DNA of 64,000 nt from the NCBI RefSeq assembly GCF_001027285.1, contig NZ_CP011509.1, positions 12,424,501 to 12,488,500 on the forward strand. The letters run 5' to 3'. Each line of letters opens with the position of its first letter. The stretch's first letter is position 1. Made by a program: the position numbers and the translations under genes. The notes beneath the pieces are model-generated. The model was not told the origin of the DNA. It did no database searches and saw only the letters and a list, made by a program, of their open reading frames with translations. Below, piece after piece: positions 44,313-62,691 of the stretch. The stretch comes from Archangium gephyra. GTDB lineage: Bacteria; Myxococcota; Myxococcia; Myxococcales; Myxococcaceae.

Positions 44313-47051
44313 TCAGAGCTCCTTCACCGCCTTCACCACGTTGTCACCCACACTCCCAGGCTGGATGATTTGAAACCCAAGGTTGCGGCACACGCGCTGC
44401 ATCGCCCCGTTGCCCGAGAGGATGTCCGCGACAATCCGTCGCAGCCCCCAGTCGCGGCCCACGTCCACCAGCCGGCGCAGCAGCTCCGACCCCAGCCCCT
44501 GCCGCTGCACCGCGTCACTGATGAGCATCGCGAACTCGGCATCCTCCGTCCCCGGCAGCCTCGTCAGCCGCCCCACCGCGAGCAGCTCGCCCGCGCTCGG
44601 CCCCTCCGCCCGCTCCACCACCAGCGCCAGCTCCCGCGCGTAGTCGTTGAAGCAGATGCGCGCCAGCCGCTCGTGCGCCACGCGATGGCCCAGCTTCATC
44701 ATCCCCGCGTACCTCAAGAACACCGTCTGCTCCGACAGCGTCTTGTGGAACTCCACCATCCTCGGCTCGTCCTCGGGACGGATGGGGCGGATGACCACCG
44801 CCTCCCCCTCCTTCATCCTCCAGCGCTCCACGTACTTCACCGGATACGGGAGGATGGCCAGCCGCGGCAGCTCCTCTTCCTTCACCTCCGGGCCGTGCAA
44901 CACCACCCGTGCATCCAGCGCCACCAGCCGCTCCGCCGACGCCAGCAGCGGGTTGATGTCCACCTCCTTGATGAAGCGCTGCTCCACCACCAGGTTGCTG
45001 AAGCGCACCAGCAGCTTGCGCAGCGCCCCCAGGTCCACCGGCTCGCGTCCGCGTACGCCCTTCAACGCCTCGTGGATGCGCGTCTGCTCCATCAGCCGCC
45101 CCGCCAGCGTCGTGTTCAACGGCGGCAGCCCCAGCGCCCGATCCTTGAACACCTCCACCAGCGTGCCCCCCGCGCCGAACAGCAGCACCGGCCCGAACTG
45201 CGCATCCAGCCCGCTGCCCACGATGAGCTCGTAGCCCTCCAGCTTCACCATGGGCTGCACCGTCACCCCGTCGAAGCCGTCCCCCTTCCCCAGCGCCTCC
45301 AGCTTCCCGCGGATGGCCTCGAAGGCCTCGCGCACCTCCCGCGCCGTCCCCAGGTTCAGCTTCACCCCGCCCACTTCCGACTTGTGGGTGATCCGATGCG
45401 AGTGCAGCTTGAGCACCACCGGGTAGCCTAGCGACTCCGCCTCGCGCACCGCCTCGTCCACCGTCGTGGCCAGCCGCGTCTCCACCGCCGGAATGCCATA
45501 CGCCGCCAGCAGCCGCTTGGACTCGTACTCCGTCAGCAGCGTGCGGCCCGCCTCGCGTGCCTCGCGGATGAGCCGCTCCGCCTCCTCGCGCCCCGGGAGC
45601 TCCTCCGCCAGCACCGGCGTCTCGTACAGGCCCGCCAGGTTGTACGTGTAGCGCCACATGTAATTGAAGATGCGCGCCGCCGTGTCCGGATAGCCGAACG
45701 TCGGAATCCCCACGTCGTTGAGGATGCGCTCGCCCGCCGCCACGTCCGAGCCTCCCATCCAACTGGCGATGACGGGTTTGCCCAGCTTGGCATACGGCCG
45801 CAGCCGCTCCGCCGTCTGCGTGGGCTCGGTCATGTCCTGCGGCGCGAGGATGACGAGCAGGCCGTCACTGTTCTTGTCCGCGCCCGCTATCTCGAGGGCC
45901 TTCGCGTAGCGCTCGGGGTCCGCGTCGCCCAGGATGTCCACCGGGTTGCCGTGGCTCCACGCCGGGGGCAGGAAGCCATGGAGCTCCGCCACCGTCTTGT
46001 CCGAGAGCTTCGCCAGCTCGCCCCCGCCCGACACCAGCGCGTCCGTGGCCAGCACGCCCGGGCCTCCCGCGTTGGTGAGGATGGTGAGCCGCCGGCCCTC
46101 GGGACGCGGCTGCCGGGCCAGCACCTCGGCCATGTAGAAGAGGTCCGCGATGGAGTCCACGCGCAGCACGCCCGTGCGCCGGAAGGCCGCGCTCAGCACC
46201 TCGTCGCTGCCCGTCAGCGAGCCCGTGTGCGAGGCCGCCGCCGCCGCCGCCTGCGCCGTCCGCCCCGCCTTGATGACGATGATGGGCTTGTGCAGCGCCA
46301 CCTCGCGCGCCGCCGACAGGAAGGCCCGCGCGTCTCCAATCGACTCCATGTACAGCAGGATGCTGCGCGTGCGCGGGTCGTTGCCAAGGTAGTCGATGAT
46401 GTCGCCCCACCCCACGTCCAGCATCGAGCCGATGGACACGAAGGCGCTGAAGCCCACCGCCTCGCGCTTGCTCCAGTCGAGGATGGCCGTGAGCAGCGCG
46501 CCACTCTGGCTGACGAAGGCCACGTTGCCCGGCCTCGCCATCTCCCGCGCGATGGTGGCGTTGAGCCCCGTCGTCGGCCGCATCACCCCCAGGCAGTTGG
46601 GGCCGATGATGCGGATGCGCGCCTCCCGGGCGATCTGGAGCACCTCCTGCTCGCGCTTCACGCCCTCGGGGCCCACCTCCTTGAAGCCCGCGGAGATGAT
46701 GATGACGCCCTTCACCCCCGCCTTCGCGCACTCGCGCATCACCCCGGGCACCGTGTCGGCCGGCGTCACGATGACGGCCAGCTCCACCGGCTCGGGCAGC
46801 GCCTCCAGCGAGGGCCACGCGCGAATGCCCAGCACGTTCTTCCGGTTGGGATTGATGGGGTAGACGGTGCCCCCGAAGGGGTTGCTGATGAGATTCCAGA
46901 GGATGGTGCGCCCCACGCTCCCCTGCCGCTCGCTCGCGCCAATCACCGCCACGCTCTGGGGGCTGAAGAGGGCATCGAGCGGATGCCGGCCCTGCTGGTG
47001 CAGCAGGTCGTACGAGGGATCATTCGGCGGCGCATGCGTCGGCTGGGCCAT
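44313..47051 (-). CDS. Acyl-CoA synthetase (NDP-forming)/GNAT acetyltransferase fusion
   Basis: A 912-residue fusion of the type known as Pat/YfiQ/AcuA-like protein acetyltransferase. Residues about 25-490 match the CoA-binding and ligase alpha part ('[19 protein letters not shown]', active-site His in '[15 protein letters not shown]'). An ATP-grasp part spans about 500-720 ('[20 protein letters not shown]'). A C-terminal GNAT domain spans about 745-905, with the acetyl-CoA loop '[17 protein letters not shown]'. In characterised relatives the ligase-like part senses small molecules or is catalytically altered, while GNAT acetylates Lys residues of acetyl-CoA synthetase. All domains look complete. 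No nearby gene points to its target. Confidence 0.93.
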
Positions 47052-47168
47052 GGGCTCTGTTTCATACGCCCGGGCCGCTCCGGTTCAACCACGACCGTGT
47101 CACGAGCGCGCGGGGCGTTGCCTGGGCGGCAGTGGAGGGCGCTGGAGATCGGGTAGGCTTGCGCCGCC

Positions 47169-47612
47169 ATGGCTCGCCGCAAACAGTCCGATGAGTCCAC
47201 CGCCCGCGTCCGCAACCTGATCGCCCTCGACGCCGCCAACATCATGCGCCGGCTCGAGGCCCGCCGCGGGGAGATGTTCGTCCTCTTCTCCCGCCTGCGC
47301 AGCCGCGAGCCCATGCTCAGCACCATCTCCACCCGCTACTCCACGGCCACCTTCCACGAGCTCGTCCACCTCCCCGTCCTCGAGCAGTCCGTCGTGGACC
47401 ACTTCTACGAGTGTCTCGACGCGCTGCGCTGGTACTTCACCTACACCGAGGACATGCCCAGTACGGCCCAGCAGACCTTCAACACGCTGCACCGGCGGCT
47501 CGAGGAGGCCCACCGCAAGCTCGTGGCCACACTCGGCCACCCCGTGTCTCCCGATGGCACCACCGTCGTGGAGGGCGAGGTGATCCGCCGGACGGACAAG
47601 GCGCTCCCCTGA
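47169..47612 (+). CDS. Hypothetical helical protein
   Basis: A 147-residue soluble protein, mostly helical with many Arg and Glu residues ('IMRRLEARRGEMFVLFSRLR', 'QQTFNTLHRRLEEAHRKLVA'). It has no recognised domain, membrane segment or signal peptide. It is divergent from the acetyltransferase fusion with about 120 bases between the starts. The frame and codon use look genuine; function is unknown. Confidence 0.65.
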   Translation: MARRKQSDESTARVRNLIALDAANIMRRLEARRGEMFVLFSRLRSREPMLSTISTRYSTATFHELVHLPVLEQSVVDHFYECLDALRWYFTYTEDMPSTAQQTFNTLHRRLEEAHRKLVATLGHPVSPDGTTVVEGEVIRRTDKALP

Positions 47613-47709
47613 AGCGAGTGAGCGGGCGAGCGACAGGCTGCTACGTGCCCCCTGCTTCGCGGCCGGTTCCTGTCTCGGTCCGGGTCTTTCGTCTAGAGTT
47701 CCCCGCCGC

Positions 47710-49215
47710 ATGTTCCAAGCTTCTCGTGGCAGGCGGTGGGCGGTCGTCCTCCTCGTTCCCTTCCTCCTCGGTGCCCTCCTGTGGGCGTCGTCCTGGTCAG
47801 CTCCCGCGGACCCACCGGCTCCCCGGCACGCACGTGCTCCGCGCACCCCTCGTCCCGCCGCCTCGCCCGACAAGCCCCTCCGGCTCGCCCAGGCCTCCGC
47901 TCCCGCGCAGGCCGCCCCCGCGCCCTCCTCCCCGGCTCCCTCCGTCAGCCGCGCGCTGCCTGCCCCCTCTCCCCGAGCCCTCAAGCTGTATCAGCTCGGC
48001 AAGAGGCTCGGCGTCCATGAGCCCCGCCTCGAGGATCCCTGTGTCGCGCCCTCCGGTGCCACCTGCTCCCGCACCGCGCTCGCTCCCTTCTTCGAGTCCC
48101 TCGACGCCCTCTCCTCCCGCGAGGCCGCCTCCCCCACCGTCATCTCCGCGTTCGGCAACTCGCTGATCGCCGGAGATCGCATCGTGGACGTCATCCGCGA
48201 GGAGCTCGGCGCCACCTTCGGCGACGGCGGGCGCGGGGTGCTCGCCATGGACCGCCTCGCTCCCTACGGGCCTCGCGTCCGCGCCGGCTTCGCTCGCGGC
48301 GGCTGGGAGCCTCGCACCCTGGGCGAGGTCAAGCTCGCCGAGCTTCCCTTCGGCATCTCCGGCATCTACCACCGCTCCACCACCACGAAGGCCAGCAGCC
48401 GCTTCGCGCTCGACCGTGAGCCGCGGGGTACCCTGTGGTGGCTCGACGTGCCCCGCGCCGGCCGGCTCTCGGTCCACGCCGATGGCCAGGAGCTCGCCCG
48501 CGCCGAGCCCCAGGGCTCCGGTCAGGCCCAGGCCCTCCCCTTCGACATCCCCGAGGGAGCCCGCCACCTGGAGGTCGTCGCCGACGGCCGGGGCGCCACG
48601 GTGCTCGGCGTCGTGCTGCAGCACCAGCGTCCCGGCATCGTGCTCGACACGCTCGGGGTGCCCTCCGCCGACGCCAACCTCTTCCTGCGCGCCCGCGAGG
48701 ACATCTTCCGCACCCAGCTCGCCGAGCGCTCTCCGCGCCTGCTGCTCTTCATCCTCGGCGGCAACGAGGCCAAGCGTCTCGAGTGGGGCCGCTCCAAGCT
48801 CGCCGAGGTCGAGGAGGGGCTGCGCACCTTCGTCCGCCGCTCGCGCGCCGCCGCTCCCGGCAGTGCGTGCCTCGTGGTGGGCCCCATCGATGCCGTGCGC
48901 GGGGGCAATGGCCCGAAGAAGCTCGCCCAGCGCCCCTACCTCGACGAGGTCATCTCCATCGAGCGGCAGATCGCCCTCTCCGAGGGCTGCGCCTTCTTCG
49001 ACATCTTCTCCGCCATGGGCGGCTCCGGCTCGCTGGCCCGCTTCGTCGACGCCGGGCTCGTCCACGAGGACCTCGTCCATCCGCGCGGCCATGGGCTCGA
49101 CATCCTCGGCCAGCTCATCACCGATGCGCTGCTGCGCTCCTGGGTGGACGCGGCGGACCCGCGCCGCCAGGCCGCCCTCGCCCCGCCGCTCCAGGCCTCC
49201 GAGGAGACGCGGTGA
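47710..49215 (+). CDS. Membrane-anchored SGNH-like protein
   Basis: A 501-residue protein. An N-terminal helix (about residues 10-30) anchors or exports it. A long Pro/Ala-rich linker follows to about residue 90, then an SGNH-hydrolase-like domain. The Ser block is 'SAFGNSLIAGDRIVD' (Gly-Asn-Ser-Leu replaces the usual Gly-Asp-Ser-Leu), an Asn block is 'FILGGNEAKR' and the Asp/His block is 'DLVHPRGHGLDILG'. It resembles envelope-located SGNH esterases or acyltransferase partners acting on cell-wall polymers. Its stop overlaps the GTG start of the following beta-lactamase-like gene, so the two proteins are coupled and probably share an envelope role. Confidence 0.8.
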   Translation: MFQASRGRRWAVVLLVPFLLGALLWASSWSAPADPPAPRHARAPRTPRPAASPDKPLRLAQASAPAQAAPAPSSPAPSVSRALPAPSPRALKLYQLGKRLGVHEPRLEDPCVAPSGATCSRTALAPFFESLDALSSREAASPTVISAFGNSLIAGDRIVDVIREELGATFGDGGRGVLAMDRLAPYGPRVRAGFARGGWEPRTLGEVKLAELPFGISGIYHRSTTTKASSRFALDREPRGTLWWLDVPRAGRLSVHADGQELARAEPQGSGQAQALPFDIPEGARHLEVVADGRGATVLGVVLQHQRPGIVLDTLGVPSADANLFLRAREDIFRTQLAERSPRLLLFILGGNEAKRLEWGRSKLAEVEEGLRTFVRRSRAAAPGSACLVVGPIDAVRGGNGPKKLAQRPYLDEVISIERQIALSEGCAFFDIFSAMGGSGSLARFVDAGLVHEDLVHPRGHGLDILGQLITDALLRSWVDAADPRRQAALAPPLQASEETR

Positions 49216-51188
49216 GAGCGCTCCTCGCCGCCCTTCTCCTCCTCTGCCTCACCGCGCCGCTCCCGGCCCCGGCCCGCTCCCGCGCCGCCGCCGCGTCCCA
49301 GCGGAAGGACACGCCCTTCCCCGCCGAGGTGCAGCGCGCGCTGGATGCGCTCGTGCGCGCCGAGCTCGCCAAGGGGCCCCATGCCGGGCTCTCGGTGGGC
49401 GTGCTCCACGGCGGCATGCGCTGGGTGCAGGGCTATGGCCTGCGGGACCTCGCCCACAAGCTGCCCGCCACGCCCCGGACGACGTACCGGATGGCCTCCA
49501 TCACCAAGTCCTTCACCGCGGTGGCGGTGATGCAGCTGGTGCAGGAGGGCAAGCTCGAGCTCGACACGGACGTGCGCTCCTGGGTGCCCCAGTACCCCGA
49601 GAAGCCCTGGAAGTTCACCGTCCGCCAGCTGCTCGGCCACCTCGGCGGCGTGCCCCATTACGACGGGCCCGAGGCCGCGGAGAACACCCAGCCGCTCGAC
49701 ACCGCGGGCGCCCTCGCCCTCTTCGCCGACAAGCCGCTGGCCGCCGAGCCCGGCACGAAGTTCGTCTACACCACCTGGGGCTACAACCTGCTCGGCGCCG
49801 CCGTGGAGAAGGCCTCGGGCCAGGGCTACGGCCGCTACCTGAAGTCCCACGTCTTCGGCCCCGCCGGCATGCGCCACGCCGCGCTGGATGATCAGCGCAC
49901 CCGCGACAAGCAGCACGCCGTGGGCTACCGCCCGTACCGGGGACAGCTCGTCCCCTCGCACTTCCTCGATGTCTCCAGCCGCTTCGCCGGTGGAGGCACC
50001 CGCGCCTCCGTGGAGGACCTGCTCGCCTTCGGCCAGGCCATCCTCCAGCACAAGCTGGTGCCCGCGGAGACCGCGCGGATGATGCAGGCCTCCATGAGCA
50101 CCCGCGAGGGCCAGCTCACCGACTACGGCCTGGGCTTCGCCACCTACCCGCTGCGCGGCCACTACATGGTGGCCCACGCCGGAGGCCAGCCGGAAACGAC
50201 TTCGCTGCTGGTGATGCTGCCCGCCGAGGACGTCGTCATCGCGATCGCCAGCAACCTGGAGGGCGAGGCGAAGCGGCAGCGGCGCATCTCCACCCGCATC
50301 ATCGAGACACTGCTGGAGGACGGGCTCGTCCGCCGCGACGCGCACCTGGTGGATCCGGTGGATGCGGTGGTGCACGAGGGGCTCGCCCGCCTCTTCACCT
50401 ACGGGCTCTCGTACCACCTGTGGGCCACCCGCGGCCCCGGCGTGCTTCCCGAGCCGGGAGACCTGTCCGAGGCCTTCACCCGCATGTCCGGGCTGCTCGA
50501 CCGCGCCACCATCGCGCAGGACCCGCAGGCCGCGCTGCAGCGCGTGCGCGACGCCCACCAGCCCCGCGAGGGCTCGCTGCTCATCCGCGTGGGCGCGCAC
50601 ATGGCCCTGACGCTGGAGAAGACGCTGGGACCCGAGAAGCTCCGCGAGTACCCCCAGCGCGGCGCGCTCGCCTTCTTCACCGACTACCTCGCCGCCTGCG
50701 AGCAGGTGCCCTGCGCCACCCCGCTGCGCTTCAGCGAGTCGCTCCAGAAGGACGCGCGGCACTTCGACGACGTCTGGCAGCGCGCGCAGGTGTCCGAGCT
50801 GCGGCGTGTCCGGCTGGACGAGGTGAAGGACGCGGAAGCACTCTGGCCCGCGCTGGAGCTGGCCACCGCCAACACCTCCCTGCACCCGGACTACGTGGAT
50901 GAGATGGTCCGCGTCGCGGGCCTGCTCGGCAAGCGGGGCAGGAAGGAGGAGCAGCTGCGTTGGCTGGAGCGCGCCGTGGCCCTGCATCCCCAATCGGCGC
51001 CGGCACGCGAGGCGCTCGCCAAGGTACAGGCCCCCGGGACGCAGGAGACGCCGGAAGTGCCCGCCGCCACCGCGCCTCGCCGCGCCACCGACGGCAGCAG
51101 CCCCGTGCCCGATGATGCCGGCCTCCTGCCTGCTTCACACCCCGTGCCTCAGCGGCCCCAGGAGCGCGCCGCCGAGCAGGGAGGCTGA
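49212..51188 (+). CDS. Beta-lactamase-family serine hydrolase with TPR-like C-terminus
   Basis: A 658-residue exported serine hydrolase of the class C beta-lactamase/DD-peptidase fold. A signal peptide of about 25 residues begins at GTG 49212 (overlapping the preceding stop as GTGA). The nucleophile Ser-x-x-Lys is in 'RMASITKSFTAVAVM', a Tyr-containing second motif is in 'FVYTTWGYNLLG' (Tyr-Thr-Thr, where many relatives have Tyr-x-Asn) and the third motif is in 'VAHAGGQPETTS'. Residues about 380-640 are helical with TPR-like character, and the last 60 residues are low-complexity. It may trim peptidoglycan or cleave another ester or amide in the envelope; antibiotic resistance is not implied. 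Confidence 0.85.
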   Translation: MRALLAALLLLCLTAPLPAPARSRAAAASQRKDTPFPAEVQRALDALVRAELAKGPHAGLSVGVLHGGMRWVQGYGLRDLAHKLPATPRTTYRMASITKSFTAVAVMQLVQEGKLELDTDVRSWVPQYPEKPWKFTVRQLLGHLGGVPHYDGPEAAENTQPLDTAGALALFADKPLAAEPGTKFVYTTWGYNLLGAAVEKASGQGYGRYLKSHVFGPAGMRHAALDDQRTRDKQHAVGYRPYRGQLVPSHFLDVSSRFAGGGTRASVEDLLAFGQAILQHKLVPAETARMMQASMSTREGQLTDYGLGFATYPLRGHYMVAHAGGQPETTSLLVMLPAEDVVIAIASNLEGEAKRQRRISTRIIETLLEDGLVRRDAHLVDPVDAVVHEGLARLFTYGLSYHLWATRGPGVLPEPGDLSEAFTRMSGLLDRATIAQDPQAALQRVRDAHQPREGSLLIRVGAHMALTLEKTLGPEKLREYPQRGALAFFTDYLAACEQVPCATPLRFSESLQKDARHFDDVWQRAQVSELRRVRLDEVKDAEALWPALELATANTSLHPDYVDEMVRVAGLLGKRGRKEEQLRWLERAVALHPQSAPAREALAKVQAPGTQETPEVPAATAPRRATDGSSPVPDDAGLLPASHPVPQRPQERAAEQGG

Positions 51189-51355
51189 GGCCCGCCAGAC
51201 TCGCCCGCTCGCCCCCCATGCGAGCGGACAACCGCACCCGAGCACAACATCCGCCTCGGACCGCTGTTGGTTCACTCCGGCACGAATCAACCCGTCCTGG
51301 GGAGGGCCCGCTGGTGGGCCTGGCCACGGCTCGGGTGCGCCTTGAAGGCTTCACC

Positions 51356-54300
51356 ATGCGGACAGTCATTCCGAGAGACCTGCACCCGGGCCATGCCGGG
51401 ATGGAGACCGTCACGTCCCTGTTGCTCGACTTCATCCGTGCCGAGGACGCGGGAGAGCGTTACGCCTTCCGCTTCGGTGTCCAGGAGTATGTGCTTCGCG
51501 GTGCCGGTGGAGGCGCCGAGAACCTCGAGCTCCACTGGAACCAGGCCCTGCTCGCGGACCTCGCCGCCCTCCACCAGCCAGGCTGCGATCCCGCCATCCT
51601 CCAGCGCGTCGGCGGGCTGCTGCGGGGCTTCCTCAAATCGGACGAATGGGCTCGCCAGGAGACCCGGCTGCTCGAGGCTGTCTCTCGCGAGCAGCCCGTG
51701 GTGGTCACCCTCCGCTCCGCCGCCGCCGAGCTGTACGCCCTGCCCTGGGAGCTGCTCACCCTGGGCGCCAGCGGTCAGCACCTGGGCGAGCTGCCCTCGG
51801 TCCTCGTGCGCTACGAGTGGCCCGAGACCCGCACCGCGGCCGAGTCGCCCTCGCCTCGTCCCGAAGGTGGGCGCGTCCTCTTCGCCTGGTCGGCGGCGGG
51901 TGGTGGCGTCCCCGTCACCGAGCACCTGCGCGCCATCCAGGAGGGAGCACGCGCCGGCCATCATCCCTTCCAGCCCCAGGGCGATGTCCTCGAGCGCGCC
52001 TCCTACGGGCGGCTGGATGATGTGCTCCGGGCGGCGATGGCCCCGGGTGGCTCGCCCATCTCCGTGCTCCACCTGCTCTGCCACGGTGGCGCCGCCGGAC
52101 AGACCTGCGGCCTGGTACTCGACGGCGAGGACACGGGCGAGCCCACCATCGTCGACGCCGGACGCCTCCGCCAGCTCCTCGCGCCCTACGCGGGCATGGT
52201 GCGGCTGGTGGTCCTCGCCGCCTGCAACGGCGGCAACACCGGCACACTCGGCAATCAGCTGGGGAGTATCGCCCAGGCGCTCCACCAGATTGGCATTGGC
52301 GCCGTCATCGCCTCGCGCTTCCCCCTGTCCATTCCCGGCGCCAACCGCTTCTCCGAGTCCTTCTACCAGGGGCTCCTCGGCGGCCCCTGCTCCGTGGAGA
52401 GCGCCTTCCTCGCCGCCCGCCGGCAGCTCGCGCGCGACACCTCCCGCCTGGACTGGGCGAGCCTGCAGCTCTACGCGCGCGGCGCCGAGGGCCATGACAG
52501 CCGCCCCCTCGTCCTGCGCCCCTACCGCGGCCTGCTCGCCTTCCAGCCCGAGCACAGCCGCTTCTTCTTCGGCCGCGACGGCGAAATCCAGGAGATCATC
52601 GGCGACCTCGGCGCGCTCACGAAGGCCGGAGCGCCGCGCCTGCTCGTCATCGCCGGCGCGTCGGGCACCGGCAAGTCCTCGGTGGTGCTCGCCGGTGCCG
52701 TGCCGCGCATGCTCCAGCAGCCCGGGGCCACGTGGGTGTTCTCCTCGATGCGCCCCGGTGCCCGGCCGCTGGCCGCGCTCGACGCCGCCCTCGCCACGCG
52801 GACGGAGCCGGGCAGGCCGCTGCTGCTCGTGGTGGATCAGTTCGAGGAGCTCTTCACCCAGACGGAGTCCGTGGAGGAGCGCGATGCCTTCGCCCACCGG
52901 CTGTGGGCACTGGCGGCGGACGCCGGCTCCGGCGTGTCGGTACTCGTCACCCTGCGCGTGGACTTCATCGGCCGCTGCGGCGAGCTCGTGCTCGATGACA
53001 AGGGATTGCGGCTCGACAAGGTCGCCTACGAGGAGAAGCACCGGGTCTTCGTGGCGCAGATGACCCAGGCGCAGCTGCAGGAGGCCATTGAAAGGCCGGC
53101 GCAGCTGGTGGGGCTCACGCTCGAGGCGGGCCTGGCGCGCCGGATGCTCCAGGACGTCGAGGGCGAGCCGGGTGCCCTCCCCCTGCTCCAGGACACCCTC
53201 GACCTCCTCTGGCAACAGCGCGAGGGGCGGACGCTCACCCAGGCCGCCTATGACAAGGTGGGCGGTGTCACCGGAGCGCTCCAACGCCGGGCCAATGCGC
53301 AAGTCGAGGCGCTCGACGACGCGGGGAAACAGCTCGCACGCCGCCTCCTGGTCCGGCTGGTGAGCACGCGCGATGACACGGCGAGGGACACGCGGCGGCG
53401 GATGCCTCTCCTGGAGCTCCGGCCACGAGATGCGGAGAAGGGGGCGCACTTCGAGCGGATCCTCGGCCGGTTCGTCGATGAGCGGCTGCTGGTGCGTACG
53501 GACGAGGGCCAGATGGCCGCCGTGGAGATTGCCCACGAGGCGCTGATCCGGAAGTGGCAGCTCCTGGTGGACTGGCTGCGGGAAGACCGCGAGCGGCTCG
53601 CGGAGCTGGAGAAGCTCAAGAGGTGGGGGCAGGAGTGGAAGAGCTCCGGGACGCTGCTGGAGTCAGGCCGGCTCGCGATCGCACAAGACATCGAGAGGCG
53701 CTGCCCCGATGAGGCCGGCGATGATGCGAGGGAGTTGCTCGAGCACAGCCGCAAGAAGCTCCAGAAGGAGCGGCTCTCCCGGTGGTTCGGCAGGGCAGGC
53801 ATCATGGTTGTAGCGGGAGGACTGCTGGCGCTCGGATTTTCCGCCCTCGTGTCCAAGCTGGTGATCAGTACCGCGTTTGGGCTGGCGTTCGAAAACTCGA
53901 CGAACCTCTTCGATCAGAAGCATGTGAACGCCGCTTTCGAACAGGTGAGGGCGAACAATCCGCAAGCGGCGAGCATCCTCTTGAGGGAGCTCGGCTTCAA
54001 TCTACCGTGGCGGATCCGCGGCTGGCTCGAGGCCCTTCCCATCTGCACCGTCAAGTCCGGTGAAGACGGGCCCGAGCCCAGGCAGAAACCCCATGGCGAC
54101 TGGCATTGCAATGTCTCCATCCAGGAGAATGGCCATGTGCGCGTGGAGCTCAACGGACTGAAGCCCTGCACCTTCCCCCTCTACGCGAAAGATGACTCCC
54201 GTGACGCCTGCATGGGGCTTATCTACCCGGAGCTCATGAAGAAGCTCTGGACGGAGAATCCCTGCCCCACTCCCGAGGAATCGAAGGGGTACTTCGGAAT

Positions 54301-54598
54301 GGCCGAAGGGCAGGATGTCCTTCCGACCCAGGCGGAGTGCAAAGACATGCAGGGGTGCCTGAGCCATTCGGAAACAGCAGACGCTTCCTGGCAGTGCTGG
54401 GCCGATTACCAGAAGGGAAGGCTCAAACGGCATAACAAGTGGCTCGCTGGAAACGCCGGCGTTCACCTGAAGCAAGCGGTGAAAGACCTGTCTCCCCTCT
54501 TCGCGGACGAACCGCCCCAGGAGCGAGCCACTCCCCCTGCTGAGGACGGCCCCCGGCGCGAGGGCATGACAGACGGGGTCTCCATAAGAGGCCCATGA
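51356..54598 (+). CDS. CHAT protease-STAND NTPase conflict protein
   Basis: A 1080-residue protein. Residues about 110-385 form a CHAT (caspase-like) protease with the catalytic dyad His243 in 'LHLLCHGGA' and Cys290 in 'VVLAACNGGN'. Residues about 390-800 form an nSTAND1 NTPase: Walker A 'GASGTGKSS' at 434-442 and Walker B 'LLLVVDQFEELF' at 489-500. A single membrane helix lies near 815-838 ('IMVVAGGLLALGFSALVSK'). The last 240 residues form a Cys-containing domain I do not recognise, where related proteins usually carry WD40 repeats. ATG 51356 was chosen because it follows a plausible GAAGG; an open upstream extension is not protein-like. In known relatives, signal binding by the STAND part unleashes the protease. 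Confidence 0.9.
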   Translation: MRTVIPRDLHPGHAGMETVTSLLLDFIRAEDAGERYAFRFGVQEYVLRGAGGGAENLELHWNQALLADLAALHQPGCDPAILQRVGGLLRGFLKSDEWARQETRLLEAVSREQPVVVTLRSAAAELYALPWELLTLGASGQHLGELPSVLVRYEWPETRTAAESPSPRPEGGRVLFAWSAAGGGVPVTEHLRAIQEGARAGHHPFQPQGDVLERASYGRLDDVLRAAMAPGGSPISVLHLLCHGGAAGQTCGLVLDGEDTGEPTIVDAGRLRQLLAPYAGMVRLVVLAACNGGNTGTLGNQLGSIAQALHQIGIGAVIASRFPLSIPGANRFSESFYQGLLGGPCSVESAFLAARRQLARDTSRLDWASLQLYARGAEGHDSRPLVLRPYRGLLAFQPEHSRFFFGRDGEIQEIIGDLGALTKAGAPRLLVIAGASGTGKSSVVLAGAVPRMLQQPGATWVFSSMRPGARPLAALDAALATRTEPGRPLLLVVDQFEELFTQTESVEERDAFAHRLWALAADAGSGVSVLVTLRVDFIGRCGELVLDDKGLRLDKVAYEEKHRVFVAQMTQAQLQEAIERPAQLVGLTLEAGLARRMLQDVEGEPGALPLLQDTLDLLWQQREGRTLTQAAYDKVGGVTGALQRRANAQVEALDDAGKQLARRLLVRLVSTRDDTARDTRRRMPLLELRPRDAEKGAHFERILGRFVDERLLVRTDEGQMAAVEIAHEALIRKWQLLVDWLREDRERLAELEKLKRWGQEWKSSGTLLESGRLAIAQDIERRCPDEAGDDARELLEHSRKKLQKERLSRWFGRAGIMVVAGGLLALGFSALVSKLVISTAFGLAFENSTNLFDQKHVNAAFEQVRANNPQAASILLRELGFNLPWRIRGWLEALPICTVKSGEDGPEPRQKPHGDWHCNVSIQENGHVRVELNGLKPCTFPLYAKDDSRDACMGLIYPELMKKLWTENPCPTPEESKGYFGMAEGQDVLPTQAECKDMQGCLSHSETADASWQCWADYQKGRLKRHNKWLAGNAGVHLKQAVKDLSPLFADEPPQERATPPAEDGPRREGMTDGVSIRGP

Positions 54599-54617
54599 TC
54601 AAGACACTCCCACTTTC

Positions 54618-54638
54618 CCCTCTCCCTCCGGGAGAGGG
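54618..54638. repeat. Short palindrome of a probable dispersed repeat
   Basis: A nine-base perfect inverted repeat (CCCTCTCCC and GGGAGAGGG) closes a TCC loop 20 bases after the CHAT-STAND stop. It is followed by ACGGGGTGAGGGTA. This CCTCTCCC/GGGAGAGG pattern looks like an intergenic repeat found in several GC-rich genomes, though a match to a named family was not tested. It could also act as a weak terminator. Confidence 0.6.
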
Positions 54639-54734
54639 ACGGGGTGAGGGTATCCGCCCCTGTATTCCACCCCGTGCCCCCACTTGGAGCCCCGGAGTAC
54701 ACTCCCGGGCACCATCACGCGGAAGGGGGGTCCG

Positions 54735-55247
54735 ATGTTCCCGGTCGAGAACGGACAGGTGAAGCGGCTCGGAGCGGACGACGCACCGGCGCTGCAGTCC
54801 CTGCTCGAGCGCTGCCGCGACTTCCTGGAGCTGACGCACGAGGCGCCGCGGCCCGATGAAGCGGAGCACTTCCTGGCGAACCTGCCCGAGGGAAAGACAC
54901 TCGAGGACAAGTTCGTGCTCGGGCTTTACGCGGACGGGACGAGCGAGCTGGCCGGAGTCATCGACATCGTCCGCCACTGGCCCGTGAGGGACGAGTGGAT
55001 CATCGGCACCTTCCTGCTGGACCCCACCCACCGCAACGCGGGGCTCGGGGCGCACGTGCACCGGCAGCTCGAGGGATGGGTGCGGAACCAGGGAGCAACG
55101 GGGCTCCGGCTCGTCGTGCAACAGCAGAACCCGGGGGCGCTCCGCTTCTGGCAGCGGCAGGGCTACACCATCACGGGCCAGACGCACCAGCGGACCCGCA
55201 CGCGGGAGAACGTCATCCACCTGTTGCACAAACCGCTCGGCGCCTGA
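54735..55247 (+). CDS. GNAT family N-acetyltransferase
   Basis: A 170-residue single-domain GNAT enzyme transferring an acetyl group from acetyl-CoA. Motif A, which binds the pantetheine and pyrophosphate, is in 'FLLDPTHRNAGLGAHVHRQL' (a variant of Q/RxxGxG/A); the C-terminal motif B is in 'NPGALRFWQRQGYTITGQTH'. The length is normal. ATG 54735 gives the natural start. The acceptor is unknown. It is transcribed away from the CHAT-STAND gene and separated from it by about 140 bases including the palindrome. Confidence 0.88.
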   Translation: MFPVENGQVKRLGADDAPALQSLLERCRDFLELTHEAPRPDEAEHFLANLPEGKTLEDKFVLGLYADGTSELAGVIDIVRHWPVRDEWIIGTFLLDPTHRNAGLGAHVHRQLEGWVRNQGATGLRLVVQQQNPGALRFWQRQGYTITGQTHQRTRTRENVIHLLHKPLGA

Positions 55248-55409
55248 GCGCGCCGGGACGCCAGGCGGCACCGTTCACCGTCTGGCATCCCAGCCGTGAG
55301 CCAGGGCCCGAGCCGTCGATGAGCGGACAGCTTCACGACTTTTGAGCCACTCGCGCGGGCGATGCCATCCGGTCCCGGGTGTGATGCCGGGCCCTTCGGG
55401 AGGGACGGC

Positions 55410-57662
55410 ATGAGCATGACGCGGCGGGAGCTCCTCCACTACTTCGGCGTGACGGCTGCGGGCCTGGCGGGGCCCGGATGTATCGGCTGGACGCGCGAGG
55501 AGGCCATCCCGGTGGACTCCTGGCACAAGAGCGTGTGCCGCTTCTGCGGCTCGGGCTGCGAGACGCGCGTGGGCGTGCGCGGCGGCAAGGTGGTGAAGGT
55601 CGAGGGCCTGCAGGAAGGCTGGAACCGGGGCCGGCTGTGCATCAAGGGCCTGCTCAACCGTGAAATCCTCTACGTCTCGGACCGGGCGCAGTACCCCATG
55701 GTGCGCAAGAACGGGCAGCTGGTGCGCGTGTCCTGGGACGAGGCGCTCGACGCGGCGGCCGCCGGCTTCCGCGAGGCCATCGCGCAGGGCGGGCCGGACG
55801 CGGTGGCGTACTACGGCTCGGGGCAGCTCTTCACGCAGGAGAGCTACACCGCCAACAAGTTGTTCAAGGGTGGCATCGGGACGAACAACGTGGATGGCAA
55901 CCCGCGCCTGTGCATGGCGTCGGCGGCCTTTGGCTACAAGTCCGTGTTCGGCGCGGACGAGCCCTCGGGCTGCTACGACGACATCGAGCACGCCACGACC
56001 TTCTTCGTCATCGGCGCCAACATGGCCGAGTGCCACCCGGTCGTCTGGGAGCGCGTGCGGGACCGCCTCCGCACCGCGCCGCAGACGCGCGTCATCGTGG
56101 TGGACCCGAGGCGCACGCCCACCGCGCGAGACGCCACGCTGCATCTACAGCTACGGCCCGGCACGGACGTGGCGCTGCTCAATGCCATGGCCCACGAGCT
56201 GCTGCGCACCGGGCTGGTGGACCGGACGTTCATCGACAACTTCGTCACCTTCCGCAAGGGCGCGGCCGACGCGCCGCCGCTCACGCGGGAGGACTTCCAG
56301 AAGTTCCTCGAGGACTACGCGCCGGAGAAGGTGGCGGACCTGTGTGGCCTGTCCTCGGCGGAGATTCGCGAGGCCGCGCGGCTGTGGGGCATCTCCCAGG
56401 CGGTGACGAGCTTCTGGACGATGGGACTCAACCAGCAGACGCACGGGGTGGCGGCCAACCGGATGATGATGGCGCTGCACCTGCTCACGGGGCAGATAGG
56501 ACGGCCCGGGCCTCGCCCTTCTCCATGACGGGCCAGCCCAACGCGGGCGGCGGCGTGCGGGACACGGGCTCGCTGGCCCACGCGCTGCCCGCCGGACGGC
56601 TCGTGTCCAAGGAGAAGGACAGACACGAGATGGAGAAGTTGTGGGGACTGCCCGAGGGCCGCATCTCGCCCAACCCGGGCCTGTCCGCCGTGCCGCTCTT
56701 CGAGGCCATGCGCGAGGGCAAGGTGCGCGCGGCGCTGGTGATGGCCACCAACCCGGCGCGCTCGCTGCCCAACGCGGATCGCTACCGCGTGGGCATGGAG
56801 AAGGCCTTCCTCGTCGTCTGTGATTCCATCTTCCCCACCGACACCGCGCAGCTCGCCGACGTCTTCCTTCCGGCGGCCATGTGGGCGGAGAAGGAGGGCG
56901 TCTTCTCGCAGTCCGAGCGCCGCTACCACCTGGTGCAGAAGCTGGTGGAGCCGCCGGGCGAGGCACGCTCGGACCTGGAGATTCTCGTGGCCCTTGGCGA
57001 GCGGCTCGGCCACGGGAGCTGCTGAAGGCGCGCACGCCCGAGGCCGTCTGGGACGAGTGGCGGAGGATTTCCGCCGGCAGCACCTACGACTTCACCGGCA
57101 TCACCTACGCGCGGTTGAAGGAGCTGCCAGGACTGGTGTGGCCGTGCCCCAGCGAGGACCACCCGGGCACCTGCCACCGCTACGTGCCGGGGAAGGATCC
57201 CCTGGCGAAGAAGGAGGGGCGCATCGACTTCTACGCGCGGCCGGACGGGCGCGCCATCGTCTACCTCTCCGAGCAGGGCCCCTTCCGGGAGGCGCTCACG
57301 GGCGACTACCCGATGATTCTCACCACCGGGCGCCGGCTGGAGCACTGGCACACCGCGACCCTCACGGGGCGGATTCCCCAGTTGCAGGGCGTCGACATGG
57401 ACTACCTGGAGATGCACCCCGGGGACGCGGCGGTGATGGGCGTGAACGAGGGGACCTGGTGCAGGTGACGAGCGCACGCGGCTCGGTGCGGCTGCAAGCG
57501 AAGCCGAGCATGCGGGTGAGGCCGGGCGTGGTGTTCGCGCTGATGCACTCGATGAAGCACCTGGTGAACGCGGCGACGAGTGACCACGTGGACCCCATCT
57601 CCGCACAACCCGAGTACAAGATGGCCGCGGTGCGGGTGGAGCGCGTGAAGGAGGGCACGTGA
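55410..57662 (+). pseudogene. NapA-like periplasmic molybdopterin oxidoreductase, frameshifted
   Basis: Sequence of a nitrate-reductase-like (NapA family) Mo-bis-MGD enzyme of about 750 residues, near family size. The N-terminus has a Tat-like signal ('MTRRELLHYFGVTAAGLAG') and a 4Fe-4S motif Cys-x2-Cys-x3-Cys ('CRFCGSGCETRVG') with a fourth Cys in 'GRLCIKG'. The frame breaks three times: near 56508, 57014 and 57450. Each break is repaired by adding one G to a G run, restoring 'PFSMTGQPNAGGGVRDTGSL', 'RELLKARTPEAVW' and 'DLVQVTSARGSVRLQ'. The rest of the chain is intact, so sequencing error is more likely than decay. It is coupled to the NapC-like gene (TGATG). Whether nitrate is the substrate is not certain. 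Confidence 0.8.
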
Positions 57663-58330
57663 TGCGAGCCTGGAGCCTGCTGTCGATGGCCGCGCCCGAG
57701 CCTCCGCATGGCGCCACGCTGGGCGGCACGCTGGAGGGCGTGGCCCTGGTGTGCATCGTCGTGGCGCTGGTGGGGCTGGTGCTGGTGGAGTTCGTCTTCA
57801 AGTCGAGGATGGCGCGCTCGACGTACCGGTGGATGCTGCTGCTGGGGCTCTTCGTGCTGCCGGCCGTGGCGCTGCTGGGCACCACGGGGCACATGTTCGA
57901 GTCGATGAAGGAGGTGGAGGCCTGCCAGTCCTGCCACGTGATGGACCCCTTCGTGGTGGACATGCACAACGCGGAGAGCGCCACGCTGGCGGCCAGGCAC
58001 TACCGGTCGGGAGCCATTCCGGCGAAGCAGTGCTACGCGTGCCACACGGGCTACGGCATCTTCGGCACGGTGGAGTCCAAGCGCGACGGCTTCCGCCACT
58101 GGCTGCTGTACGTGACGGACACGTGGAAGGAGCCCATCACGTACAAGGGCTCCTATCCCAACTCCAACTGCCTGGCCTGCCACGCCACGGCGCCGGCCTT
58201 CACGCGGGTGGACAGCCACCGGGCGCTGAGCAAGCAGCTCGCGAGCGACGAGATGAACTGCTTCACCTGCCACGGACTGCCGCACCCCTCCCGCCCGAGC
58301 CGCGCGCCCACCCGCGCCGCCGTCCACTGA
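57662..58330 (+). CDS. NapC/NirT-type tetraheme c-type cytochrome
   Basis: A 222-residue membrane-anchored cytochrome that should pass electrons from the quinol pool to the NapA-like enzyme. Two hydrophobic segments near residues 25-50 and 58-78 anchor it. Four heme-binding Cys-x-x-Cys-His motifs follow in order: 'CQSCH', 'CYACH', 'CLACH' and 'CFTCH'. The size suits NapC/NrfH-like proteins. The start at 57662 overlaps the upstream stop as TGATG. Maturation would need a cytochrome c biogenesis system elsewhere in the genome. Confidence 0.92.
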   Translation: MRAWSLLSMAAPEPPHGATLGGTLEGVALVCIVVALVGLVLVEFVFKSRMARSTYRWMLLLGLFVLPAVALLGTTGHMFESMKEVEACQSCHVMDPFVVDMHNAESATLAARHYRSGAIPAKQCYACHTGYGIFGTVESKRDGFRHWLLYVTDTWKEPITYKGSYPNSNCLACHATAPAFTRVDSHRALSKQLASDEMNCFTCHGLPHPSRPSRAPTRAAVH

Positions 58331-58339
58331 GGCCCCGCC

Positions 58340-58543
58340 ATGAACGCGCCTTCGCCCGATAGGTTGATTCGAGCCGCCGTCCTCCTGACGCTGGTGGGCC
58401 TGCTGATGATGCTGCCCATCCTCTTCGGCGTCCGCGCGAGCTTCGTGGGCTTCTACATGCTGGGGAGCCTGCTGCTCACGGTGTCCCTCACGCTGTATGT
58501 CATTGCCGTGGTGCGAGAGCTGCGCCGCGGCGGCGCGTTGTGA
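58340..58543 (+). CDS. Small two-helix membrane protein
   Basis: A 67-residue protein with two membrane helices ('AAVLLTLVGLLMMLPILFGV' and 'GSLLLTVSLTLYVIAVVREL') and a basic end. It starts nine bases after the tetraheme cytochrome gene, so it belongs to the same operon and may help assemble or anchor the redox complex. No family is recognised. Confidence 0.65.
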   Translation: MNAPSPDRLIRAAVLLTLVGLLMMLPILFGVRASFVGFYMLGSLLLTVSLTLYVIAVVRELRRGGAL

Positions 58544-58556
58544 GCATGAGAAACGC

Positions 58557-60260
58557 TCAGGGGAACGCTTCGGCCCGGGTCTGCCAGTATTCCCTGTAGG
58601 GGAAATGTATGAAGTCGTTGGTGTTATCCGTGATCAACATTGCCCGATGGCGCAATGATGCCGCGAAGACCGCCAGGTCGAAACGAAGCCGGTCCCGGCA
58701 GGCTCGCTCGGTTTCGTGCTGACGCTGCAGAGGAGGCGCGTCGAACTGGAGCTTCCGGTTCAAATCGAAAAAGCACCGGGCGGAGAGTGCATCGAACGGG
58801 ACAACCTGAAGCCCTCGTTCGATGAGGTTCGTATCAATGATGTGCAGCCCCTTGGCTCCCTTTTTCCGGGAGATGAGTTCGGCGTACACGAGCGTGGAGA
58901 TCAGCGCGGGCCGACCCTGTTGCCGCACACGCGCCACTTCTGGCTGAAGCGCGCTGTTGGTATCGAAGAACAGGGCCTGTGTTGGCACTTCCCCGATGAA
59001 AACGATTTCCGGCGGAGGAGGCGGAAGATCAGCCAGTGGATTCCGCATCCGAGCCTTCCTCCCGCAGATGATCCGCGTACCCTGGGGTCCCAGGAGTTGG
59101 TACCCGTGCCGGCTCGGTACGAGGTACACGTGCTTCCCATCTTGGATACCTAGTTGCTTCAGCACTTCAAAGGGAAGGGTGACACCTCCGCCTCTCGTGA
59201 CCTGCAAGAGCTCCTCATCAGCTTGCTGCCTGGCTGGGACAGGGTCCGCCCATCGCGCCTGCGTCCCGTCTTGTGGATCTCGCGAAACCACGAGCCGCTC
59301 AGCTTCCTCCTCGAAGACCCGGGAGTGGCTGGTAACGAAGACCTGATCCATAGGCCCTGTCTCACCCGTGAACTCGCGCAACTTCTTCCAAAGGAGACGC
59401 TGGTTGGGCTCGGAGAGGTTCATCTCCGGCTCCTCGACGGCGAGAATCCTGCCGCGGTGGCAGAGCGTGAGAGCGAGCAGCGTCAGCAATTGCTGGATAC
59501 CCGTGCCTCGCTCCTCTAGATCCAATTCAACCCCATTCTGCCGGGTACGAACGTTGATCTTCTGATTGGGTTGGACAGAAACATTCACAATGCCGATTCC
59601 GAGCGCAGGGTCGCGAACAGCCGCGCGCAACTGCTCAAATCTCTCCTGTACCTCTAGATCGGACTATTCTTGTAGAGAAAAAGTAATTGCTTGAGATTGG
59701 AACCATGCCACCGGACCTGGCTTTCCCAGGGCGTGTTCTTATGGAGATGAAGGGACTCCCCTCCAGGCTCTCGCCTCGTAGTAACGAGTCGGAATGCAGG
59801 AGCTAGGGACCAAGCCATTCCTCCAGTACCTTGCCTGACCATGGTGACCCAGCTAGAGGTGCGCGCAAGCCCTTCTCGATGCGCTCTCCCTCACGGGTCC
59901 ATTTGATGCGGTAGTCGATGATCTCGCCGGGAGGGGACGCCAACCACGAGCCCCATCGCGCGACTCAAATCTGATGCCAAGAGAGATGCTGAACGAATCC
60001 TTTCCGTGCTGGAAAAGGTTCTGCCATCCTTCACCCAATCGGGATATTCGGAGGGCTCACCAGGAATGGATTTAACATCATGATCTGCTTCCACGCGGAG
60101 TAGAGTCGGCAACGTGCTGAATGCGAGGTCCAGCGCGTGCAGGATGTTGCTCTTGCCGACATCGTTTGGCCTTCGATGACGACATGGGCTTATCGAGTCC
60201 CTCAAGCCGAAGCCATTCGATACTCCGGAAGTTTTCGATCTCCAGCCACGCGACCCGCAT
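58557..60260 (-). pseudogene. OLD/AAA_15-like ATPase-AbrB-PIN fusion, frameshifted N-terminus
   Basis: A candidate about 565-residue protein. It starts at ATG 60260 ('MRVAWLEIENFRSIEWLRL'), typical of SMC/RecF-like ATPases, and then has Walker A in 'PNDVGKSNILHALDLAF' after a frame break near 60190. Further breaks lie near 59940 (one C missing from a C run), 59822 and 59650. The last 357 codons (to 58557) are one clean frame. They hold Walker B 'RILAVEEPEMNLSEPNQRLL', an AbrB-like swapped-hairpin segment ('VTRGGGVTLPFEVLKQLGI') and a PIN nuclease ('ALFFDTNSAL', 'VYAELISRK', 'LRFDLAVFA', 'ITDNTNDF') with its four acidic residues. The region is lower in GC than its surroundings. ATPase plus antitoxin-like plus toxin in one chain is unusual. 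Confidence 0.65.
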
Positions 60261-61025
60261 CGGTACCTTCCTGCCGCCCTTGGCAGCACCGCCTTTGCTC
60301 ACGGCCCATATATCAACGATTCCCCAAGAGGGCAGGCTCAAGACCTTCACCGTGCCACGAAGAACTTCGCGCGCTCGGGGCCCACGGTGCCCAGCGAGCG
60401 GGCGATCAACGTAGCGTCGATGAGGTAACGGTCCACGGCGAGGCCCGGAAGCTCGCTACCCCCTCCACCGTCCATGTGCCCGCGAACTGGGCGTTGTAGA
60501 AGTTGTGACCAAGACAAGGTGATGGGCCGCTCCGGCGTCGTCTGCACGTGACCGGAGGCATCCACCACCTCAAGCACCGGAGAGAAGGGCACGCCCACCT
60601 TGGTGATGCTCGAGACACGCGGAACGAGAGCCGGGCGAGCCCACGTGGACTACGTCGACCGGTTGGCTCTCCGTCGCTGGCAGCCGGGCACGTTCGTGGC
60701 GATCTTCCCAGCAGCACCTGGACGGTCAACCCCTCGACAGGACCCAGCACGGCCTCGGCCGCCTCGCGCAACGCTCCCGAGCGGGCAAGCTCGCGCACCT
60801 CAGGCACGGACTCGAAGAGGTCGCGTGTGCAACCACGCCGCCGTGGCTCGGTTCCCCTGGGGAGCGTTGCAAGTGCCGAGAGCAACGTATCGAGGGCCAT
60901 GGAGGGAACGCCTGGGGAGGATGGCGAAGCCCTCCCGCTCGATGCATGCAGCCAGCGCTTCGCGAATACCGTGCCTCGCGATTGTGGCAGGCTACCGCGC
61001 CCCCAACGTGGAGCCACCGACGATC
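60261..61025 (-). pseudogene. Broken coding region, possible PhyH-like fragment
   Basis: No intact gene is seen. On the minus strand, two frames joined near 60900 give protein-like sequence ('EALAACIEREGFAILP', then 'ALDTLLSALATLPRGTEPRR' and 'LFESVPEVRELARSGALREA'), reminiscent of the N-terminal part of phytanoyl-CoA dioxygenase-like proteins. The expected His-x-Asp iron-binding motif could not be located, so the family is only a guess. Downstream, other fragments ('SITKVGVPFSPVLEVVDASG') follow in yet another frame. The stretch probably holds one gene damaged by several frameshifts or sequencing errors. Confidence 0.3.
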
Positions 61026-61432
61026 ATGATCGAGCTACGTGCCTGCATCGATGTCGAGACCTGGACAAGGCCATCGCGTTCTACACCCAGACCTTCGGGT
61101 GAAGCCCGGGCGCCGGGATGGCTCCGCGTGGCCGAGCTGCTCGGGGCCACCTCCCCCATCGACCTGCTCGCCGGCCGGCGGGGAGCCCGTCCAGCCCCGG
61201 AGCCTCCTCCGTACGTGACTACCGCCGGCACTGGACCTCCGTCCATCTGGACTTCACCGTCACCGACCTCGACGCCGTCGTCCAGCGCGCCCAGGCCGCG
61301 GCGCCACCGCTCGATCGCGGCATCCAGGAGCAGAAGTGGGGACGCATGGCCAACCTCGCCGACCCCTTCGGCAATGGCTTCTGCCTGCTCGAGTTCCGGG
61401 GCCGTGGTTACGACGAAATCGCCGGCTCCTGA
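61026..61432 (+). pseudogene. VOC (glyoxalase/dioxygenase superfamily) protein, frameshifted
   Basis: A small protein of the vicinal-oxygen-chelate superfamily, about 135 residues if repaired. Its N-terminus 'MIELRACID' continues in another frame as 'RDLDKAIAFYTQTFG', then in further frames as 'AELLGATSPIDLLAG'. The C-terminal half from 61190 is clean: 'HWTSVHLDFTVTDLDAVVQR' and 'GRMANLADPFGNGFCLLEF' are classic VOC signatures with the metal-ligand His and Glu. At least three frame breaks lie between 61055 and 61190. It may act on a toxic or xenobiotic small molecule. Confidence 0.65.
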
Positions 61433-61532
61433 GCCGAGCCCGCCCGCCCGCTGTGCTCGCGCCTGACGTGCCGCCGGGTGCCGTTGAATCCGTTCGGGCC
61501 AGCGGGCCCCCACCATGGAAGACTGCGCCGCC

Positions 61533-62636
61533 ATGCGAGCCTCGCTTCGTTCATCTCTCCTTGCCCTGACGCTCGTCTGTCCACCGCCGCCAGTGCGGCC
61601 CCTCCGGCCGGCAAGCCCACGCCCTTCCACGCCCGCGTCCCCGATGAGGCGCGGGTGGAGCGCGTCCTCCAATCCCTGTCCCGCGCGAGAAGGTGGGGCA
61701 GCTGCTCCTCGCCTACCCGCAGGTGGGCAAGGAGAACCCCGTGGAGTGGGCGGGGTGCTCTTCGTGGGCGGGACGCTCAAGAAGCTCGACGCGGCGAAGG
61801 AGCGCATCCGCTCCTCCAGCGCGCGCGCGAAGATTCCTCCCTTCTTCGCGGTGGACATCGAGGGCGGTGGCTTCAACCGGCTCAAGGCGCACCCCTCGCT
61901 CAAGGAGCTCCCGCTGGCCCGGGACATGGCCACGATGGAGGACGCCGAGGTGGAGGCGTGGGGCCTACGCGTCGGCAAGGCGATGAACGAGGTGGGGCTC
62001 AACATGAACCTCGCGCCCGTGTTCGACGTGTCCCCCAAGGGCCACATGTTCCGCAACGGGCGCGCCTTCTCCGGGGACCCCAAGGTGGTGAAGCAGAAGG
62101 CCACCGCCTTCGCGCGCGGCCTGGCGAAGGCCGGAGTCGTCTCCATCGGCAAGCACTTCCCGGGCTACGGGGATCTCGACGCGGACTCGGACCACGAGCA
62201 GGCCGTCGCCGATTGGGACGAGGAGCGCGTGCGCCTGGAGGCGGCGGCCTTCCGTGCCGCGGACCGCTACCTGGGCGGGGTGATGCTGTCGAACGTCGTG
62301 TACGCGAAGCTCGGAGCGGGGCCGGCCATCCTCGAGCCCGCGCTCGTCTCCATGGCGCACGAGAACGGGTGGATCTCCGTCACCGACGACGTGGCCATCC
62401 GCGCGCTCGCCGAGCGTATCGGCACCGAGCGCGAGGAGGTGGTGCGCCGGGCCTTCCTCGCGGGCAATGATCTCATCCTCACCACCGAGCCGCCGGACTG
62501 GTCGGGCGGGCTGGACTACTTCGGCATCCTGACGAAGCTGGCCGGGTCGGACCCGAAGGTGGCCGAGCAGCTGGACGCGGCGGTGCGGCGGGTGCTGCGC
62601 ATCAAGGACCGGATGGGCCTGCTGGACGGGCTGTAG
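61533..62636 (+). pseudogene. NagZ-like glycoside hydrolase family 3 protein, frameshifted near N-terminus
   Basis: A GH3-type beta-N-acetylhexosaminidase-like enzyme of about 368 residues with an N-terminal signal segment ('MRASLRSSLLALTLVC'). The frame breaks near 61578, 61680 (C run) and 61752 (G run); after that it is clean to the stop. The clean part has 'FFAVDIEGGGFNRL', 'LNMNLAPVFDV' and the signature 'IGKHFPGYGDLDADSDHE', which contains the His-Asp region acting with the nucleophile in this family. A related enzyme, NagZ, recycles peptidoglycan in the cytoplasm, whereas the signal here suggests an exported enzyme. Confidence 0.75.
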
Positions 62637-62691
62637 CGAGCATTCCGGATTCTTGAGCCCGGCGGGGGTTCGGACTGAAGTGCCGGAGTCC

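Follow-up and report, generated by a model that had tools for sequence, protein, structure and literature searches.

Within the 64,000 nt stretch of the Archangium gephyra genome analysed here (the window), one long open reading frame encodes a CHAT protease fused to an nSTAND1 ATPase, followed by a predicted membrane helix and a tail in which the WD40 repeats common among related proteins are missing. The locus raises the question of whether this helix and tail represent a special replacement for the repeats, as a sequence-only reading had proposed, or the remains of an older arrangement. Bacterial proteins joining STAND ATPases to proteases have been discussed as counterparts of the death receptors of animals and fungi, with their C-terminal repeats regarded as the sensing part. 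As regards architecture and origin, the gene probably encodes a CHAT-nSTAND1 switch anchored in the inner membrane, from which the WD40 propeller has been lost; its function is much less certain.

A conserved CHAT-nSTAND1 core

The features of the gene are listed in Table 1. The CHAT domain matches the Pfam family with 68.5 bits against a cut-off of 24, and the SAVED_CHAT profile of PADLOC partially matches residues 39-389 (1.4e-32). In the AlphaFold model the CHAT-nSTAND1 part is mostly well modelled, and the top fold match of the CHAT domain is the SAVED-CHAT structure 8tl0 (Z 18.8, 183 aligned residues, rmsd 2.8). The nSTAND1 domain scores 333.9 bits against a cut-off of 27.1, and its fold matches include Apaf-1, NLRC4 and the ORC/Cdc6 ATPases; the whole protein found no PDB match by sequence. 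The CHAT dyad and the STAND Walker motifs had both been described as intact from the DNA alone, and this is borne out: His243 and Cys290 lie in LLCHGG and AACNGG and are kept in 38/38 relatives, K440 is present in all 123 relatives compared and D494 in 121 of the 123. The domain score and the His-Cys dyad thus place the protein among the CHAT proteases, proteolysis itself being predicted.

Table 1. Positions of the gene and of its domains, motifs and tail segments within the window.
Feature	Residues	Coordinates	Strand	Basis
Whole gene	1080 aa	51356..54598	+	Uninterrupted ORF; start possibly Met16 at 51401
CHAT caspase-like protease domain	123-373	51722..52474	+	Pfam PF12770, 8.8e-19
LLCHGG motif, His243 predicted catalytic histidine	Cys242-His243	52079..52084	+	His243 in 38/38 relatives
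AACNGG motif, predicted catalytic cysteine	Cys290	52223..52225	+	Kept in 38/38 relatives
nSTAND1 NTPase	389-765	52520..53650	+	Pfam PF20703, 2.6e-99
Walker A, GASGTGKSS	434-442	52655..52681	+	K440 and S441 in 123/123 relatives
Walker B, LLLVVDQFEE	489-498	52820..52849	+	D494 in 121/123 relatives
Predicted transmembrane helix, N-in	814-832	53795..53851	+	Kyte-Doolittle 2.2
Pre-propeller element (NNPQAASILLRELG...RIRGWLEALP)	~837-895	53864..54040	+	Shuffle tests
Middle segment, unmatched; Cys 897, 918, 938, 952	896-955	54041..54220	+	Occupies relatives' propeller position
Post-propeller Cys cap, W-C-C-C-C; Cys 970/995/1001/1014	~956-1025	54221..54430	+	Shuffles, alignment A1
C-terminal end, unmatched, low predicted order	1026-1080	54431..54598	+	Searches, AlphaFold

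STAND proteins detect their trigger with the C-terminal repeats and are assembled by the action of the ATPase (PMC7159879). In CHAT proteases the dyad stays inactive up to the point at which it is rearranged by a trigger (PMC9729208). By analogy, the core of this protein should form a membrane-tethered, ATP-driven protease switch.

A predicted membrane helix shared with WD40-bearing relatives

Hydropathy supports the proposed single membrane helix, residues 814-832 being the only strongly hydrophobic segment of the protein. The 15 residues on either side hold seven lysines or arginines before the helix and one after it, which by the positive-inside rule predicts the N-terminal part to be inside and the tail outside; this agrees with the cytoplasmic placement of the N-terminal module in the sequence-only reading. 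The helix is an ordinary trait of the family and not a peculiarity of this gene. It follows nSTAND1 in 24 of 33 CHAT-nSTAND1 relatives, many with WD40 repeats behind it; a simple pattern, which misses some repeats, finds clear WD40-like repeats in 11 of these 24. In L160, the closest orthologue (another genome of the same genus; 69-70% identity over residues 22-895), the helix lies at 899-917 and is followed by WD40 matches from about 1063, with the repeats occupying about 1063-1486 and the same cap as in the A. gephyra protein behind them. The notion of helix and tail as a special substitute for WD40 repeats is not supported by this order, the same helix preceding WD40 repeats in L160 and many other relatives.

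Much of the tail matches propeller flanks

Behind the helix stand 248 residues with eight cysteines (897, 918, 938, 952, 970, 995, 1001 and 1014), an enrichment in cysteine (8/248 against 7/812, Fisher p 0.011). Such an enrichment is as expected for an oxidising compartment, the location of the tail being predicted. Searches of Pfam, NCBIfam and PADLOC recovered no family from residue 805 onward. Of what the sequence-only reading described as a Cys-containing domain of 240 residues, roughly half shows homology to the sequence on either side of the propeller in relatives.

Two segments carry this homology, with matches of about 30% identity over short stretches for which the support is statistical. 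The first, directly behind the helix (residues ~837-895), was compared with a profile of the linkers between helix and propeller in WD40-bearing relatives, and its score was reached by none of 3000 shuffles; in a pairwise comparison with L160 the score was reached by four of 3000. The second, the Cys cap (residues ~956-1025), has pairwise scores of 63 against the C-terminus of L160 and 69 against that of L023, neither reached by any of 3000 shuffles (means about 28-29). Against a profile of five close caps no shuffle out of 3000 attained the observed score, and one did so against a broader profile. In an alignment of the cap with L160, L023 and L024 (alignment A1), the tryptophan and three cysteines are invariant and the fourth cysteine is present in three of the sequences. 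Searches with this alignment found a generic cap at further myxobacterial C-termini; in those matches whose frame was readable on the stored strand, WD40-like sequence precedes it. The extended W-C-C-C-C cap follows the propeller in several relatives, for example at the C-termini of L023 and L160, and is suggestive of disulphides outside the cytoplasm.

Between the two flanks, where relatives have their propeller, no relative was found for residues 896-955. AlphaFold predicts four short strands there, with pLDDT below 50. A remnant of a WD40 blade was considered in residues 896-957, since the alignment with L160 starts at AKDDS, yet a blade profile scored no higher on this segment than on shuffles, and a pairwise test of the segment alone gave no support either. 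Together with the lack of any Pfam WD40 match, this agrees with the original observation that WD40 repeats are absent. Given no WD40 signal, the middle ~60 residues may be either an eroded propeller or an unrelated insert, two origins that look alike.

No relative of the tail as a unit was found in 195 Myxococcota genomes or in a plasmid collection, and hence nothing points to a domain used again elsewhere. A search for the tail in other proteins, put forward in the sequence-only reading, thus gives relatives for its parts and not for the whole: residues ~837-895 and ~956-1025 match propeller flanks. The refuting result named in that reading, a C-terminal part that matches a known repeat sensor, is obtained in part, as the flanks of such a sensor are recognisable and the sensor itself is gone. 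Structure prediction, proposed as a further way to characterise the tail, yielded the four short strands but no confident fold, with pLDDT below 50 in the context of the protein and a mean of 52.9 for the tail alone. By sequence, the PDB gave one non-significant match (E 0.39), and matches of the tail to protein families were weak (E 0.01-1), short and scattered. A match elsewhere in the same genome (C1:4285019; 45%, 5e-4) was rejected as due to chance: it lies in an apparent YdcF-type protein and crosses its stop codon. The tail therefore appears to be mostly the flanks of a lost propeller rather than one new domain; the unmatched remainder comprises a central stretch of ~60 residues and the last ~55.

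Probable loss of an ancestral propeller

WD40 repeats were detected by Pfam in 23 of the 33 CHAT-nSTAND1 relatives. In a tree of the core, the A. gephyra protein forms a clade with L160 and L161 (support 1.0), which is placed with L021-L024 (support 0.65-0.80). These four, from metagenome-assembled genomes of Myxococcales/Polyangia, have the same kind of cap; L021 and L022 contain many WD40-like motifs, and L023 and L024 have WD40-like sequence ahead of their caps. The position of the protein inside WD40-bearing lineages implies that the loss of the propeller is derived. L161 (G033:C1:6684000-6694000), an orthologue of 71% identity, is truncated soon after the helix, with a pre-propeller-like segment apparently in another frame and no propeller downstream. 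The simplest reading of the tree is that the propeller is ancestral, and would have been lost in the A. gephyra gene and separately in L161. TRF found no tandem repeats in L160, and hence there is no direct support for a loss through recombination between near-identical repeats. None of seven neighbour genes was found within the fetched flanks of the orthologue loci.

Possible functions of the reduced protein

Relatives are built up as CHAT protease, nSTAND1 ATPase, membrane helix, short helical linker, WD40 propeller and Cys cap. Of these, the A. gephyra protein keeps the linker and the cap, with about 60 residues in the propeller's place. The predicted topology would put the CHAT-nSTAND1 part in the cytoplasm and the tail beyond the membrane. 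ATP-dependent assembly of nSTAND1 would, as in STAND proteins generally, turn on the CHAT protease, which might then cleave a cellular substrate and bring about growth arrest or cell death. In other bacteria caspase-like proteases cleave gasdermins (PMC9079055); no gasdermin was seen among the scanned neighbour genes in the window. As the propeller is absent, the ancestral way of sensing the trigger is no longer available. The gene is most likely a silent allele or one of altered specificity, or else its product responds to a trigger by way of the short Cys tail or of partner proteins.

That the gene has been functionless since losing its propeller, with a drifting tail, is possible, though we think it doubtful. 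In fungi, alleles of het-e that have few WD40 repeats seem to be inactive (PMC12881547), and two relatives end close to the same point, L161 being truncated directly past the helix and L197 stopping two residues after it. The GC content of the tail is 0.60 against about 0.70 in the core, and dN/dS rises to as much as 0.65 at residues 766-832. Against decay, the frame of the tail is open for all 248 codons (GC3 0.71-0.80), every catalytic motif is intact and the cap retains its tryptophan and four cysteines. Nor does the core evolve faster than that of L160: with four outgroups, 28-33 changes in the core are specific to this protein and 32-39 to L160. Pairwise dN/dS against L160, which may mostly record the time preceding the propeller loss, is about 0.20 in CHAT and 0.35 in nSTAND1. 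The core rate, the dN/dS values and the open tail frame speak against an old pseudogene, but would still allow for a function lost only recently.

It is rather unlikely that the propeller was replaced by a new sensor domain in the periplasm, held by disulphides and formed by the tail, which detects a signal outside the membrane. The eight cysteines of the tail and the positive-inside topology would fit such a role, as would ~60 unmatched residues with possible strands and a core under constraint. However, homology to the flanks of the propeller accounts for about half of the tail, AlphaFold gives it no confident fold, and as a unit it occurs in no other protein of the Myxococcota genomes and plasmids searched. 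Slightly less probable again is a composite version, in which the protein would be a working membrane-spanning caspase-like switch whose disulphide-held periplasmic tail, made of the propeller's ends and a new insert of ~60 residues, had taken over sensing.

We regard it as quite improbable that this protein is a sensor-less helper or damper, for which the helper NLRs of plants are a precedent, assembling with those CHAT-nSTAND1 paralogues in its cell that do carry WD40 repeats. Several such paralogues are among the roughly 20 CHAT loci of the genome, for instance the WD40-bearing C1:1608917, with 52% identity in the CHAT part; against this, no second CHAT-nSTAND1 gene is linked to it within the window. 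The open frames of these 20 or so CHAT-domain loci vary widely in length.

Relation to known systems

For the preferred reading, loss of the propeller from a membrane-anchored switch, the nearest known design is that of the myxobacterial CHAT-nSTAND1-TM-WD40 proteins (L160 and L021-L024), which share with the A. gephyra protein the CHAT dyad, nSTAND1, the position of the helix, the linker and the Cys cap, but have several WD40 repeats or WD40-like sequence that it lacks. It appears mostly to be a reduced version of this design without a newly acquired domain. L188, L189, L190, L191 and L195 have the same core, a (weakly) hydrophobic helix after nSTAND1 and no WD40 repeats, but carry TPR-like tails (read by eye) and no Cys cap. 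These tails imply that the C-terminal module is changeable among CHAT-nSTAND1 proteins, in agreement with the variable C-termini reported for such conflict systems (PMC7159879).

SAVED-CHAT, the top match of the CHAT domain both by fold and by profile, has a SAVED second-messenger sensor where this protein has nSTAND1 and a membrane helix. The TPR-CHAT protein of Craspase (Csx29) has a CHAT protease with a His-Cys dyad that needs activation (PMC9729208), but is RNA-guided, soluble and without a STAND ATPase. Apaf-1, CED-4 and the NLRs resemble the protein in the STAND switch, by fold match only, and Apaf-1 resembles the WD40-bearing relatives in its C-terminal sensor repeats; in these systems, unlike here, the protease is recruited rather than fused and there is no membrane helix.

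The locus suggests that a repeat sensor can go whilst core and anchor stay conserved, a situation comparable to that of het-e (PMC12881547). It also points to a feature of the wider family, in which a membrane helix separates the ATPase from the propeller and the latter is followed by a Cys cap; this arrangement would put WD40 sensing beyond the membrane in many myxobacterial relatives.

Sequence integrity near the contig ends

The window is located close to the end of a genome assembled as a single contig of 12.49 Mb. The last 19.46 kb of this contig duplicate its first 19.47 kb (~19.5 kb at 99.6%, the differences being essentially indels), window positions 45476-64000 and C1:1-19466 being two ends of a circular overlap left untrimmed. 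An apparent gene duplication, with a 100% second copy at C1:5854, was rejected on this account. In the part of the overlap inside the window there are 70 indels between the ends but none within 50101-56507, where the gene copies are identical; hence its reading frame agrees in both. The frame may be slightly too long at the 5' end, as the orthologues start at the position of Met16. A propeller hidden by a frameshift was also sought, but a six-frame comparison of 53700-56600 with L160 gave one short, weak match, in the stretch from nSTAND to the helix. A collapse of WD40 repeats during assembly is very improbable: the gene does lie within the error-prone overlapped ends, but these are identical from 50101 to 56507 (though reads may be shared between them), one recognisable blade or more should have survived a collapse where none is seen, and the repeats of L160 are too diverged for TRF, which makes repeat collapse unlikely.

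As regards a possible role in anti-phage defence, the nearest neighbour genes encode beta-lactamase-like, GNAT and oxidoreductase proteins, and the only PADLOC match is the partial one to SAVED_CHAT. Genes outside 50101-56507 have frames broken by sequencing errors. A molybdopterin oxidoreductase gene (55362-56528, continuing in another frame) breaks near an indel between the two contig ends (56507), the likely cause being a sequencing error. On the minus strand at 58557-60289, in an indel-rich stretch with broken frames, a fragment of an AAA_15 ATPase is in frame with an apparent PIN-type domain, and this open reading frame may be two genes merged through errors.
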